DNA from: a virus
Direction: 5' to 3' (one strand)
IMG/VR virus record: IMGVR_UViG_3300025626_000158
Location: 1-21,433 of that record
DNA: 21,433 bases
Within the stretch, counting starts at the first letter, position 1; each line of letters opens with the position of its first letter. Positions 12,977-21,386 of this stretch are shown here, one piece after another. The position numbers and the translations under genes were made by a program. The notes under the pieces are model-generated. The model had not been told where the DNA came from. It searched no databases and worked only from the letters and a program-made list of their open reading frames with translations.

Positions 12977-14293
12977 TCAAAATGCATACACACCATAATT
13001 ACCTTTTACTTCATACCACATTCGCATCATCAATGCATCAGCATAATCAGGTGATCGACCAAGTAATGATTTGATTGTGTCCTTTGGAATGATTGAAAGC
13101 TTCTGTGTGTCTTTGTCAATCTTATCCCTTTTGATGATTTCAAGTTCTTCAATGATGGCTTGTTTATGTGCTTTGTCTTTTACTGCAATTTTTCCTTGAT
13201 TGACTAATTCAGCCAATTTGAAATAACATTGTGTTTTTAAGTTCTGAAAGTTTTCATTCTTTAGTGCTTTGCTTCCATTGACAAATCCTTTGCATCCGGA
13301 TATGCCATCCTTGACACCACCACCAACACCATCTTCATCCACAATAATGTGTGATCTTTGAACACCATTTTCAATTGACATCTTGTTTATCTGTTCAATT
13401 GTTGTTGTGACTGATGATTGTGCCAATGAAACAATCTTTTCAGCTGTCAACCCATTCCATAAAATGATGATGGTTTTATCTGCTCCAAATCGTGCAACAT
13501 CACAGGTGATATATTTCATTGATCCTTCCAACTTGTTTGTAAACATATCATGGATTGAATCATAATCAAATAACAATGCATCGTCTTCATTATATTCCCA
13601 ATCACCCAACAGAAGTCTTTGCCTTGACACCTTATCAAGTTTTTCAAGCTGTTTGATATAATGTTCTGATATTTCTGTATTGTCCCTTACAAGTGATTGA
13701 ATGAATTTTCTGTGATCAGACATTCGATCTTCTTTGTATGGCTTGTAAAATTCTGAATACAGCCATGTCTTTGTAGGATTGCAAGTCATTAATGTCTTTG
13801 GAATTAAATCGTATTTATCCAATTTAAACCTAATCCTTGAATTCAATATGTTGACAGCTTTCTGTGACACCTCTGCACATTCATCCACAAATGCATCTGT
13901 GATTTCTAATCCACCCAATGAAGTGAAGTCAGGATCTGAAGGATATAAAAATAAGTCTTTTAAATATATGATTGAATCATTGAAGAATGTGATGGTTGAT
14001 TCCTGTGCATTATAATTGAAATGTTCATTTGGTTTCAACCCACAGAAATCTTGTGCCACTTCAAAAAAGGTGTTTAATGTTGTTGCCTTTAGATTCTTCA
14101 GCTTTGATCTTCCAATTACTGACCTTGTTCCGGCATACGTCAATCGTCTTTGAATTTGCCATAAACAACCTGTGAATGTTTTTGAACCTCCTGCACCACC
14201 CCCAAATAAAACTTCTGTTGTTGTCTTATCATTTAGGTAATTAAAGCATTGTACTTGCTTTGGAAATAGTTCAATGTCAATCTTGTTGTTCAA
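12977..14293 (-). CDS. terL: Terminase large subunit
   Basis: This 438-residue protein has all the expected motifs of the packaging motor. There is a Walker A-type loop, GGGAGGSKT (31-39), and a hydrophobic Walker B strand with the acidic pair in AFVDECAE (D137, E138). The segment MTCNP at about 169-173 could be the coupling motif. The C-terminal RNase H-like nuclease carries acidic residues in ITCDVARFG (D265), VDEDG (D319, D321) and PDYADALMM (D416, D419). Size matches the family. It hydrolyses ATP to drive DNA into the prohead and cuts the concatemer. The start at 14293 overlaps the putative small subunit by 17 bases. The portal gene that usually comes next is absent. Confidence 0.95.
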   Translation of the reverse strand: MNNKIDIELFPKQVQCFNYLNDKTTTEVLFGGGAGGSKTFTGCLWQIQRRLTYAGTRSVIGRSKLKNLKATTLNTFFEVAQDFCGLKPNEHFNYNAQESTITFFNDSIIYLKDLFLYPSDPDFTSLGGLEITDAFVDECAEVSQKAVNILNSRIRFKLDKYDLIPKTLMTCNPTKTWLYSEFYKPYKEDRMSDHRKFIQSLVRDNTEISEHYIKQLEKLDKVSRQRLLLGDWEYNEDDALLFDYDSIHDMFTNKLEGSMKYITCDVARFGADKTIIILWNGLTAEKIVSLAQSSVTTTIEQINKMSIENGVQRSHIIVDEDGVGGGVKDGISGCKGFVNGSKALKNENFQNLKTQCYFKLAELVNQGKIAVKDKAHKQAIIEELEIIKRDKIDKDTQKLSIIPKDTIKSLLGRSPDYADALMMRMWYEVKGNYGVYAF

Positions 14294-14569: not shown

Positions 14570-14653
14570 CTAATCTTTAAAAGTTAAATAAGCATAAAAT
14601 AGATAAACACCTACAATGACAATGACTGAAAAGAAAGCTGTTGTTGTTGCCAT
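14570..14653 (-). CDS. 27-residue single-pass membrane miniprotein
   Basis: This is a short ORF of 27 codons between the 91-residue gene and the small terminase gene. Its ATG (14653-14651) shares one base with the stop of the upstream gene as TGATG, and its TAG (14572-14570) is two bases from the next start. The product begins MATTTAFFSVIVIVGVY, has an uninterrupted hydrophobic core of about 20 residues and ends in TFKD. It should span the inner membrane once. The exact fit into the operon makes coding likely. The function is unknown. A holin or membrane anchor role would be guesswork, and its place before the terminase is unusual for lysis. Confidence 0.6.
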   Translation of the reverse strand: MATTTAFFSVIVIVGVYLFYAYLTFKD

Positions 14654-14928
14654 CAGTTTATGTCTTTTGAAGTCATTATGTCATCCATAGGTCTAATATC
14701 TTCCGGAATGACATCCATCAATTGCAATTCTTCAACACCACTTTCAAGTTTATCTTTAAATATAGATGCTGTTTCTATTGCCTTATCAAGTGCATATCCT
14801 TTGCATATTCCTTTTACATAAGATACAACACCTATTTGATCAGGAAATACTTCTTCAATCAATGTAAAGAAATCAACCCTTCCATCCGGCAATCTTGGTG
14901 TTTTGAAATTTTCCACTTTTTCACTCAT
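14653..14928 (-). CDS. Conserved-looking small protein upstream of terminase
   Basis: This 91-residue acidic protein has no recognised family. It starts with MSEKVENFKTPRLPDGRVDF, with two prolines and a Gly-Arg that suggest a turn, then forms a helix (FFTLIEEVFPDQIGVVSYVK). A second helix (ALDKAIETASIFKDKLESGV) and an acidic tail follow. The start follows an A-rich leader (AAATAAATAAACAAAAACA) and lies downstream of the tRNA gene, so it may be translated from a message cut by tRNA processing. Confidence 0.7.
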   Translation of the reverse strand: MSEKVENFKTPRLPDGRVDFFTLIEEVFPDQIGVVSYVKGICKGYALDKAIETASIFKDKLESGVEELQLMDVIPEDIRPMDDIMTSKDIN

Positions 14929-14952
14929 TGTTTTTGTTTATTTATTTGTTTG

Positions 14953-15046
14953 CTGTGGGGGAAAGACTCGAACTTTCAAGAAGGACATTTCTGTTGCCTT
15001 CGCCTTCGGGACAGGAAGGTGTGTCTGCCAATTCCACCACCCCACA
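14953..15046 (-). tRNA. Type II (Leu-like) tRNA with anticodon GUC
   Basis: The minus strand folds as a complete tRNA with a long variable arm. The acceptor stem is TGTGGGG (15046-15040) with CCCCACA (14960-14954), followed by U8-G9. The D-arm GTGGAATTGGCAGACAC is the bacterial Leu consensus apart from one base. The anticodon stem is CCTTC (15019-15015)/GAAGG (15007-15003), and the loop CTGTCCC (15014-15008) places GUC at 15012-15010. The variable stem is GAAGG (15001-14997)/CCTTC (14984-14980). The T-arm is GAAAG (14977-14973), TTCGAGT, CTTTC. GUC reads Asp codons, not Leu. C37 and G73 are also unusual, and the acceptor starts with U1-A72. No CCA is encoded (GCA follows). The gene starts two bases after the stop of the 50-residue ORF, so it must be cut from the operon mRNA. 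Confidence 0.8.
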
Positions 15047-15048
15047 AT

Positions 15049-15201
15049 TTAAGATCCACATGCTTCACAATCTTCATCATCAATATCACATACATCCGGT
15101 TGAACTTGATCAGTCATTGCATCAATCCAATTATCCCATGTGTCCCTTGCAACTTTTTCATTCTTCTTCTTCTTCTGTTCTTCTTTTTCTTCATTGCTCA
15201 T
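15049..15201 (-). CDS. Hidden 50-residue acidic small protein
   Basis: This 50-codon ORF fills the space between the DUF3310 gene and the tRNA. Its ATG (15201-15199) lies 11 bases inside the end of the upstream gene, and its TAA (15051-15049) is two bases from the tRNA. The product begins MSNEEKEEQKKKKNEKVARD, a charged helix. It continues DTWDNWIDAMTDQVQ and ends in an acidic, Cys-containing tail, VCDIDDEDCEACGS. The C-terminal cysteines might bind a metal. Charged small proteins at this place are common in phages. I do not recognise it. The operon fit is the chief support. Confidence 0.55.
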   Translation of the reverse strand: MSNEEKEEQKKKKNEKVARDTWDNWIDAMTDQVQPDVCDIDDEDCEACGS

Positions 15202-15379
15202 TGTACTGACTTTTTAAAATGATTTGTAAATAGTGCATTGCTTTTTTGATGTCTTCTGATCCATTCTTTGATTTATGCCTTGATACATATTTTATCACGT
15301 TACCTTCACAGAAATCAATTCCATTTGATACAATGTAATCAACCGGCTCAATCTTCATTTTATCATAGTGTTCTGTCAT
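15191..15379 (-). CDS. DUF3310 family small protein
   Basis: This 62-residue protein matches the DUF3310 pattern well: HYDKMKIEPVDYIVSNGIDF with the E-P-x-D-Y/W-I start, FCEGNVIKYVSRHK as the 'F-x-x-G-N-x-x-K-Y-x-x-R' core, then KNGSEDIKKAMHYL. The family is common in phages and is often labelled a nucleotide-kinase-related small protein, but no activity is firmly known to me. The whole domain is present. Its start overlaps the HNH gene stop as ATGA, and its end overlaps the hidden 50-residue ORF. Confidence 0.85.
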   Translation of the reverse strand: MTEHYDKMKIEPVDYIVSNGIDFCEGNVIKYVSRHKSKNGSEDIKKAMHYLQIILKSQYNEQ

Positions 15380-15639
15380 CTTCTTTTGTAGTTTTCAAGT
15401 CTTTGTTTATGTCTGTCTTTCAGCATATCCATATATTGCTTTTTATCACCATATGTGATATGGCAATTTCTACATAATGCCATCAGATTATTTATGTTGT
15501 CCTTGCCTGTTCCACCCATACCCCTACATTCTATGTGATGAATGTCAACAGCTTTTTTGCCACATATTTCACATGGTATAAATTCATCACCAAAATAATC
15601 AAAGTGCTTGATATATATTTTAGTATGCTTCTGCATCAA
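15376..15639 (-). CDS. HNH endonuclease
   Basis: This 87-residue protein is a minimal HNH nuclease. A zinc knuckle is formed by C23-x2-C26 and C56-x2-C59. The catalytic motif is VDIHHIECRG (H34, H35), followed by the Asn-rich segment TGKDNINNLMALCRNCH with N51 and the final H60. HNH proteins encoded near the terminase often act with it in cutting cohesive ends, and one lies here about 1 kb upstream of the small terminase. It may equally be a general nicking enzyme. A charged C-terminal helix follows. It overlaps the upstream gene by 20 bases. Confidence 0.9.
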   Translation of the reverse strand: MMQKHTKIYIKHFDYFGDEFIPCEICGKKAVDIHHIECRGMGGTGKDNINNLMALCRNCHITYGDKKQYMDMLKDRHKQRLENYKRR

Positions 15640-16215: not shown

Positions 16216-16603
16216 CTATTTGTTCCATCTCTTTCAATGCAGATTTTAAACATGGAACACAATTTGATGTCTTTGTATTTCCACCAATGTATTTCCTTTG
16301 CATATCATACAACAATTCCTTCTGTGTTGGATTGATTGTTTGCTTAACATCTTTCAGTAATTTCTTTATTGCAAGATAGTCATTTTCAGCGACTTGTGAA
16401 ACACCCCAATAAGAAAAAGGACACCTTGAAAAAGTTAATTTTGTTTTGACATCCATGAAACATCCACATGTTCTTTTGCTTCCCACCTTATTTCCAACAA
16501 CTGCTGTTCCACATGTCCTTGTTTTCTTTCTGAAATGTCGACAGGATTCACAAATTGCAATCCTTTTGTTTGATAATTCTTGATCAACTTTAAATGGTAT
16601 CAT
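16193..16603 (-). CDS. Cys-rich probable zinc-binding protein
   Basis: This 136-residue protein has eight cysteines arranged as C18-x2-C21, C31, C46-x-C48, C61 and C115-x2-C118. The first six probably form a zinc site like small phage zinc-ribbon proteins (AICESCRHFRKKTRTCG, then TCGCFM, then RCPF). The C-terminal half is helical and ends in an acidic coil (EMEQIVEEYEKE). Its start overlaps the stop of the sigma-like gene as ATGA, so both may be coupled, and a role with transcription or replication is possible. The exact function is unknown. Confidence 0.75.
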   Translation of the reverse strand: MIPFKVDQELSNKRIAICESCRHFRKKTRTCGTAVVGNKVGSKRTCGCFMDVKTKLTFSRCPFSYWGVSQVAENDYLAIKKLLKDVKQTINPTQKELLYDMQRKYIGGNTKTSNCVPCLKSALKEMEQIVEEYEKE

Positions 16604-17133
16604 ATTATTTCCTTGATGTTCTTTTTTACTTTTTCAATTGTGTATTGAATTGACTTAAATGTAATGCCTGTTTCTTCAGATAATTTTCTGACAGACAATC
16701 CGGTTTGATAATAAAGTTGAAATAATTTTCTATCATAATCATCAAAGGTGTCAAGACAGCTGTCAATTCTTTTGTGTAATGAATCAACATATTCATCTGT
16801 GGTGTTGTCTATTTCCACATTCTTATTCACTAAATGTTCCAAAAATGTTTGATCAGATTTTATCTTGTTTTTTTTATACTTGACATTTTTTTTATTGAAT
16901 TGTGACTTTGATGAAAAGTATTTTACCATCATAATTTTGCAAATGTATGTTTTGATTTTACCACTATCAATAATGATTAGCAATTTGTGTTGATTCATAG
17001 TCATCAATTGAAGGAATGTTTCCTGAACTAAATCTTCAGACAGATCTTTGTCTTTGGTTTGTTTGATTGCAAATCCAAGAAAGTATTTGTAATCTTTATA
17101 AACCCATTCAATCGGATGCCATTTATCCTTCAT
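16600..17133 (-). CDS. Sigma-70-like RNA polymerase sigma factor
   Basis: This 177-residue protein has the layout of a small (ECF-type) sigma factor. A region-2 helix pair is seen at about 14-75, including KDKDLSEDLVQETFLQLM (the usual 'D-x-V-Q-E-x-F' patch). A basic, Lys/Asn-rich linker occupies about 75-110. The region-4 part at about 126-177 contains FDDYDRKLFQLYYQTG and a helix-turn-helix, LSVRKLSEETGITFKSIQYT (146-165). Such a factor would redirect host RNA polymerase, perhaps to the late operon. It is coupled by ATGA overlaps to the nuclease gene before it and the Cys-rich gene after it. Region-4-only regulatory proteins are an alternative, but the region-2 patch favours a sigma. Confidence 0.8.
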   Translation of the reverse strand: MKDKWHPIEWVYKDYKYFLGFAIKQTKDKDLSEDLVQETFLQLMTMNQHKLLIIIDSGKIKTYICKIMMVKYFSSKSQFNKKNVKYKKNKIKSDQTFLEHLVNKNVEIDNTTDEYVDSLHKRIDSCLDTFDDYDRKLFQLYYQTGLSVRKLSEETGITFKSIQYTIEKVKKNIKEII

Positions 17134-20761: not shown

Positions 20762-20789
20762 TTTATATCAATCTTAATTGTGATTTATG
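20762..20789 (-). repeat. Imperfect direct repeat copy 1 (gene 3' ends)
   Basis: Copy 1 of a 28-base imperfect direct repeat lies at the end of the methyltransferase gene and includes its stop codon. It matches 21402-21429 at 24 of 28 positions by eye. Both copies encode a QLRLI-stop ending in the same frame. Confidence 0.6.
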
Positions 20790-21386
20790 TTCATTTATTC
20801 TTTTTATTGCCGATTCAAAATAATCTTTATCTAATTCACAAGCTGTCAAATCATATCCTAAATTATGACAACCTATGGCAATACTCCCACTACCTAAATG
20901 AGTATCAAGTATTTTATCCCCCTCTTTAGCATAGTTCATTAATAGCCATTCGTATAGTTTGACAGGCTTTTGTGTAGGGTGTATTCTTATTTTGTCAGCA
21001 CCCAAAAAACCTTTATATCTAATAGGAGCTATTCTTAAAACTTTATCAAAACTACACCAAGCCAATTCACCGTCAGCAAAATCACAATCCCCATTTATTC
21101 CCTTATCCCAAAATATATAACATCTACTTGGCTTTAATTTATCAGAAAAATAATTGCCTCCCCAAATTATTTGATTCTTACTCACTCTTTGCAATTCTAA
21201 AAAATATTCATTTGTTGGTGTTTCGTTATCCCATTTTTTACCCTTTTTATATTTCTTATTTTTGCCATTCCCCATCGTCATTTCTGATGCACCAATACCA
21301 TAAGGTGGGTCTACAATAGCCAAGTCAAAGTAATTATCCTCGTACCTTGACATTAATTCCATGTTGCACTCGTTTGTAATTTTCAT
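20763..21386 (-). CDS. DNA adenine/cytosine-N4 methyltransferase
   Basis: This 207-residue enzyme is an amino-methyltransferase of the beta class (motif IV before motif I). It shows DPPYGIG (26-32) for the catalytic loop, HPTQKPVKLYEWL (from 136), and DTHLGSGSIA (161-170) for S-adenosylmethionine binding. The order and length fit an N6-adenine or N4-cytosine methylase without a long recognition domain. In phages such enzymes protect DNA from host restriction. No restriction enzyme partner is seen. The C-terminal end, QLRLI, is repeated at the end of the previous gene just outside the window. The start is preceded by an A-rich leader with two AAACCA units. Confidence 0.95.
   Translation of the reverse strand: MKITNECNMELMSRYEDNYFDLAIVDPPYGIGASEMTMGNGKNKKYKKGKKWDNETPTNEYFLELQRVSKNQIIWGGNYFSDKLKPSRCYIFWDKGINGDCDFADGELAWCSFDKVLRIAPIRYKGFLGADKIRIHPTQKPVKLYEWLLMNYAKEGDKILDTHLGSGSIAIGCHNLGYDLTACELDKDYFESAIKRINEHKSQLRLI

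Follow-up and report, generated by a model that had tools for sequence, protein, structure and literature searches.

A Class II tRNA-Derived RNA Family with a Leucine-Type Body and Aspartate-Type Determinants in Phages and Sphingobacteriaceae

The 21.4-kb virus sequence analyzed here, the whole of which (21,433 nucleotides) we call the window, encodes an RNA with the body of a tRNA-Leu and the anticodon of a tRNA-Asp. Which amino acid would such an RNA carry, and would it read codons? The original prediction was that it could be charged with leucine or serine and misread Asp codons, or that it could be a poor decoder serving another purpose.

The RNA gene in the window and its close relatives

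The check with ARAGORN that the original prediction had proposed gave a single tRNA in the whole window, on the minus strand at 14952 to 15046, with anticodon GTC. The gene (nucleotides 1 to 73; 14953 to 15046, minus strand) is also supported by covariation and by the Rfam tRNA model, which scored 38.8 bits across the entire molecule when the short stretch alone was searched; the Rfam run over the whole window listed nothing. Read directly on the minus strand from 15046 to 14953, it is the complete class II tRNA that had been described, with loop CUGUCCC (anticodon GUC), C37, and G73, and it has the four stems, T loop, G18G19, and complete acceptor of a cloverleaf. The folding energy of the RNA by itself was unexceptional (z = −0.48).

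All parts lie on the minus strand. The 5′ strand of the acceptor stem, UGUGGGG (15040 to 15046), begins with U1, which gives an Asn-type first pair, and G2, which gives an Asp-type second pair; the 3′ strand, CCCCACA, and discriminator G73 occupy 14953 to 14960, and C74 is encoded. The D arm, GUG-GAAUUGGCAGA-CAC (15021 to 15037), is nearly identical to those of bacterial and phage tRNA-Leu, with exact or near-exact matches of 22 to 25 nt to annotated phage tRNA-Leu genes, which bears out its earlier description as Leu type. In the anticodon arm, CCUUC-CUGUCCC-GAAGG (15003 to 15019), the anticodon lies at 15010 to 15012 and C37 and C38 at 15008 to 15009. The 25-nt variable arm (14978 to 15002), with stem GAAGG/CCUUC, is followed by the T arm GAAAG-UUCGAGU-CUUUC (14961 to 14977), which contains A51-U63, a putatively weak EF-Tu pair.

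The RNA lies within a codirectional operon leading to the large terminase gene. A 50-amino-acid open reading frame (ORF) (15049 to 15201, minus strand) has its stop codon 2 nt before the RNA start, and directly downstream, after a gap of ∼25 nt, is a 91-amino-acid ORF (14653 to 14928, minus strand) with no family match in PHROGs. Two genes downstream of the RNA is the terminase large subunit gene (12977 to 14293, minus strand; phrog_979, E value 1e-30), whose closest annotated phage counterpart, from Flavobacterium phage 11b, has 64.5% DNA identity. PHROGs matches elsewhere in the window were a nucleotide-kinase-like small ORF (15191 to 15379), an HNH endonuclease (15376 to 15639), a sigma-factor-like protein (16600 to 17133), and a DNA methyltransferase (20763 to 21386).

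The terminase large subunit gene served as the anchor for finding relatives. In four distinct contigs (L001, L037, L003, and L004), the RNA occupies the corresponding position and is 89 to 100% identical, with loops CUGUCCC, UUGUCUC, and CUGUCUC, and with GUC, C38, and G73 in all. Thus, where an ordinary Leu anticodon in homologs had been named as a refutation, GUC was found instead, and the same loop in independent contigs speaks against a sequencing error. A compensatory change occurred in the T stem of L003 and L004. In an alignment of 20 family sequences, standard pairs filled 100% of the 400 pair cells (45 to 60% in slid controls), and 12 of the 20 pairs, including all five of the anticodon stem, had changed on both sides, a score reached by none of 500 shuffles. 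A decaying or erroneous tRNA-Leu gene would account for the unusual loop, but given the loop's recurrence in independent contigs, the compensatory changes, and covariation that no shuffle equaled, it can hardly be the explanation. As originally argued, the gene is intact, and it is kept in place in its close relatives.

Among more distant relatives, with terminases 78 to 91% identical, ARAGORN reported no tRNA. In two of these relatives, the slot of the RNA is occupied by a small Cys-rich ORF (MKHLSSYEGESNCCGAG...) (L011, 5190 to 5330; L006, 3075 to 3220), which suggests cassette exchange.

A family shared by phages and Sphingobacteriaceae

Viral and bacterial sequences were scanned with a pattern in which the Leu-type D arm is followed by the GUC loop. 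This pattern matched 88 stretches of viral sequence and, in bacterial genomes, at least 120, nearly all from Sphingobacteriaceae among the matches listed. Of 299 matches, 287 fold into a cloverleaf with a 7-bp acceptor and a 5-bp T stem, mostly 83 to 169 nt in total length. Extra scans with the anticodon loop or position 33 left free added viral loci; a final relaxed scan gave 17 viral loci, which are outside the comparisons below. The strict pattern was found in 36 of 91 Sphingobacteriaceae genomes, with up to 7 copies per genome. Copies with a larger D loop were found beside the Lrp gene in nine pattern-negative genomes among those examined and in G226, so that about half of the 91 genomes carry the family, which was also found in ∼120 phage contigs. 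It is thus well supported from sequence comparison that the family is conserved, largely unannotated, and common to many phages and soil bacteria of the Sphingobacteriaceae (Pedobacter group). Of 25 host stretches, ARAGORN missed the RNA in 24 (nine bear copies, all of them unreported), Rfam at curated thresholds listed none of the copies at five family loci, and a literature search found no description of this RNA family. Cultured phages and plasmids gave no convincing match. Spread outside the Sphingobacteriaceae was rejected: a relaxed phylum-wide draw matched 7 of 297 genomes, and the match in G126 looks like chance.

Members share the Leu-type D arm, a first pair that is U1-A72 or A1-U72 without exception, G2-C71, G73, anticodon GUC (sometimes GUU), a pyrimidine at position 37, usually C38, and a variable arm of ∼5 to 101 nt. 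Because G10 belonged to the search pattern, its presence cannot count as independent evidence; the same holds for GUC and C38 in the two D-arm/GUC scans, and a later scan left both free. G73 was present in all 204 distinct members of a table preselected on G73 and an A-U first pair, and, in a table made without either selection, in every member with a GUC- or GUU-type loop and an A-U first pair. In a set of 56 viral members found with the acceptor free, the first pair was U-A in 50 and A-U in 6 and the second was G-C in 55, with pairs 3-70 to 7-66 variable. In 27 viral members found with the loop free, position 33 was U in 14, G in 7, A in 3, and C in 3; 34 was G in 24 and A in 3; 35 was always U; 36 was C in 17 and U in 10, corresponding to an Asp or Asn anticodon; 37 was U in 25; and 38 was C in 21 and A in 6. 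The C37 originally singled out as unusual is therefore one form of the pyrimidine that is a hallmark of the family, with U37 in most relatives.

The 121 host copies all have U1-A72, G2-C71, and G73; 117 have U37, 118 have a U29-U41 mismatch, and two host genomes (L365 and L368) have C33. A51-U63 does not vary among the hosts or within alignment A1, and the RNA has G49-C65. Ordinary host tRNA-Asp has G1-C72, G49-U65, and G51-C63, and host tRNA-Asn has U1-A72.

Several variants were observed among the matches. A viral subfamily with GUU, the Asn anticodon (L302, L303, L304, L310, L313, L317, L321, L323, L324, L325, and L330), has the same U1-A72/G73 class II body, with U37 and a 13-nt arm, and its CCA end is encoded. 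Loop CUAUCUC, in L296, L299, and L315, has a wobble A34 that would need inosine or special reading. Long members (L124, 5386 to 5529; L089, L067, L106, and others) have a variable region of 70 to 100 nt in which a GGGUUGACCAC-like motif recurs; the region had no Rfam match. Solitalea longa (G008) has seven copies, five of them spaced 150 nt apart.

A gene encoding a 158-amino-acid Lrp/AsnC regulator is the divergent neighbor of the RNA, at a distance of ∼157 nt, in 96 of 120 host loci, and host copies lie behind a conserved, Bacteroidota-type promoter-like sequence, TTTG...TACATTTG. Lrp was rejected as a partner exclusive to the RNA, since 81 of 91 Sphingobacteriaceae genomes have an orthologue, many without an adjoining RNA. 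In many phages, the window included, the RNA starts a few nucleotides past the upstream stop codon, and several phage copies are near other tRNAs. A phrog_6681-type terminase lies downstream of the RNA in 38 of 84 viral loci; by inspection, the large terminase and portal genes of these 38 are crAss-like, with the large terminase gene (TerL) 116 to 2,133 nt downstream. A packaging RNA or signal beside the terminase was rejected because other phages carry the RNA beside different genes (DnaB-like and sigma-like, by inspection) and its position is inconstant. Neither packaging nor a fixed neighbor accounts for the phage RNA.

Charging identity and decoding capacity

The bacterial Asp determinants are G73, G10, G34, U35, C36, C38, and, as a minor one, G2-C71 (PMC9976931). 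The window RNA has all of these; it departs from tRNA-Asp in having U1-A72 instead of G1-C72, with only G2-C71 present in the acceptor, and a 25-nt arm instead of a class I loop. U1-A72, the mark by which bacterial GatCAB recognizes tRNA-Asn (PMC4206432), is present in the window RNA; the 6 acceptor-free viral members noted above have A1-U72. Bacterial LeuRS requires A73 (PMC9976931), and the window RNA and its homologs have G73. The original prediction took G73 as Ser type; it is the Ser discriminator, but it is equally that of Asp and Asn. Instead of the bacterial Ser-type C72 and C11-G24, the window RNA has A72 and U11-A24 (as do most members at 11-24), and the large arm as a Ser feature is undercut by its unconstrained length in the family. 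The D-arm matches to tRNA-Leu and the published Asp set together indicate a body derived from tRNA-Leu with the identity of Asp, and it is very likely that the family as a whole has switched away from Leu or Ser and acquired Asp determinants.

Charging with leucine or serine, as originally proposed, is unlikely in view of G73 versus the A73 of Leu and the defined long arm of Ser. The Leu-type D arm, the long arm, and the G73 held in common with Ser favor an RNA so charged that misreads Asp codons, but the set that is kept is that of Asp. Furthermore, Asp codons make up ∼65 per 1,000 in the window's genes, so such a tRNA would be very costly, indeed highly toxic. We consider this reading very improbable. 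Two metagenome-assembled genomes, from a planctomycete (Planctomycetota; L130) and a member of the Blastocatellia (L193), have matches with GUC, A37, A73, and G1-C72; these look like Leu-type tRNAs merely bearing GUC, and the mischarging idea would suit them better than it does the window RNA.

The joint conservation of U37 or C37, frequent non-U33, the U29-U41 mismatch in the hosts, and A51-U63 suggests that the RNA is excluded from decoding; at the level of the family, we think that this is probably so, although each feature singly could be tolerated. At the EF-Tu positions of the T stem, A51-U63 is conserved and G49-U65 is lost. An ordinary class I tRNA-Asp is also present in 10 of 12 genomes, so the RNA need not act as the sole Asp decoder. 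The earlier alternative of a poor decoder with another purpose is probably right.

In the window copy itself, the anticodon stem is intact and U33 is retained, as it is in about half of the members found with the loop free. It could therefore be a working extra tRNA-Asp that reads GAU and GAC, with an odd loop and body that resist anticodon-cutting defenses so that phage translation continues after cleavage of the host tRNA-Asp. The retained Asp determinants fit this explanation, as do a window loop that departs from the host loop CUGUCAC at position 37 alone, the closeness of several phage copies to other tRNAs, and published phage tRNAs whose altered loops are predicted to escape anticodon nucleases (PMC10264068). 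However, U37 shows conservation, not neutrality, U33 is frequently missing, and the host stem mismatch is conserved; the first pair and T stem deviate from tRNA-Asp alike in phages and hosts; and cellular copies fixed beside Lrp are ill suited to an origin in phage counterdefense. We regard an extra tRNA-Asp as a minority possibility to be taken seriously. That the RNA instead serves anticodon nucleases as a decoy substrate, or acts as an RNase P or RNase Z processing signal in a late operon, is quite improbable. Its start so close to the upstream stop codon is consistent with such roles, but the strict 1-72, 2-71, and 73 marks and the promoter-driven host copies would be unexplained. Position 33 falls within the site recognized by anticodon nucleases, and the loops vary there, which argues against a nuclease decoy.

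A possible carrier role and comparison with known systems

The reading that we prefer, with a probability of about 0.4, is that the RNA is a carrier charged by AspRS, perhaps amidated to Asn, and used outside ordinary translation. Charging, amidation, and use are what we infer from the conserved marks. Host AspRS would load Asp by means of GUC, C38, G73, G10, and G2-C71. Because the first pair is U1-A72 as in tRNA-Asn, not G1-C72, the loaded Asp could then be amidated to Asn by GatCAB. Pyrimidine 37, the frequent loss of U33, and the distorted host anticodon stem would prevent decoding, and the oversized arms and putatively weak EF-Tu pair would keep the charged RNA off codons. The outcome would be a nontranslational carrier of Asp or Asn for amino acid synthesis or donation, and phage copies may supply or compete in the pathway during infection. 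The full sequence of loading by AspRS, amidation through U1-A72, and exclusion from the ribosome is more tentative, well short of even odds. G1-C72 has been described as strictly conserved among bacterial tRNA-Asp species and helps with placement of the 3′ end by AspRS, so charging may be lowered by U1-A72, and the marks are not uniform: some members have A1-U72, A34, or A38. No candidate aminoacyl transferase that could be the acceptor enzyme was identified next to the RNA at the loci inspected.

GatB was present in all 11 RNA-bearing host genomes tested, and AsnRS and GlnRS were both present in 5 of 6, leaving no obvious other task for GatCAB in these hosts; GatCAB alongside both enzymes has been treated as a puzzling combination (PMC4206432). 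We rejected co-occurrence as proof: GatB was equally common (18 of 20) in Bacteroidota genomes without the strict-pattern RNA, so its presence fails to link the two and is permissive, not diagnostic. Loss of AsnB was likewise rejected as a general feature of hosts, because 10 of 11 host genomes have the gene (in the exception, Solitalea longa, nothing scored above the cutoff); Asn synthesis via the RNA would therefore be nonessential.

The RNA might instead bind AspRS or an AspRS-GatCAB complex as a regulator or decoy, tuning Asp and Asn charging without handing on an amino acid. Conservation mainly at AspRS and GatCAB contacts, a host gene adjoining an amino-acid-sensing Lrp/AsnC regulator, and the known control of a synthetase by a tRNA-like RNA (PMC9976931) are in keeping with this idea. 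A decoy would not need a complete acceptor end, G73, and C74, and we consider it doubtful.

If the carrier reading is true, a bacterium with a discriminating AspRS could feed GatCAB, and phages would bring their own copies. Confirmation would offer a specific candidate reason for the retention of GatCAB by bacteria that have AsnRS and GlnRS, add a new example to the tRNAs that have left translation, and reveal a new contribution of phages to their hosts. The family spans the phage-host divide and joins Asp and Asn marks in one molecule that has lost decoding marks.

Known systems share some of these properties. Like bacterial tRNA-Asp, the family has GUC, C38, G73, G10, and G2-C71, and like tRNA-Asn, it has U1-A72 and G73; unlike either, it is class II, has pyrimidine 37, often lacks U33, and mixes acceptor marks. 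Nematode nev-tRNAs (Hamashima 2012, as cited in PMC3923123), class II with Gly or Ile anticodons, likewise join a Leu-type body to a foreign anticodon and are reportedly charged with leucine, whereas G73 removes Leu identity from the family. The allo-tRNAs and tRNA-Sec-like RNAs are also class II with non-Leu/Ser anticodons, GUC being among the commonest (PMC7609411), but they have 8/4 or 9/3 branches; the window RNA has a 7-bp acceptor and a 5-bp T stem, and the family is 7/5 with U1-A72 and a Leu-type D arm. Phage tRNAs with nuclease-evading loops (PMC10264068) are, like the family, phage encoded with an altered anticodon loop, but they are read as normal decoders, and the family also exists as a host gene passed on vertically. 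The Staphylococcus aureus nonproteinogenic tRNA-Gly species, donors for cell wall bridges, are charged by the normal synthetase and marked for weak EF-Tu binding by A51-U63, which the family has as well (PMC4052509). No Fem-type acceptor enzyme like theirs was found for the family, which differs from them in amino acid and body, keeps the D-loop GG, and is shared with phages.
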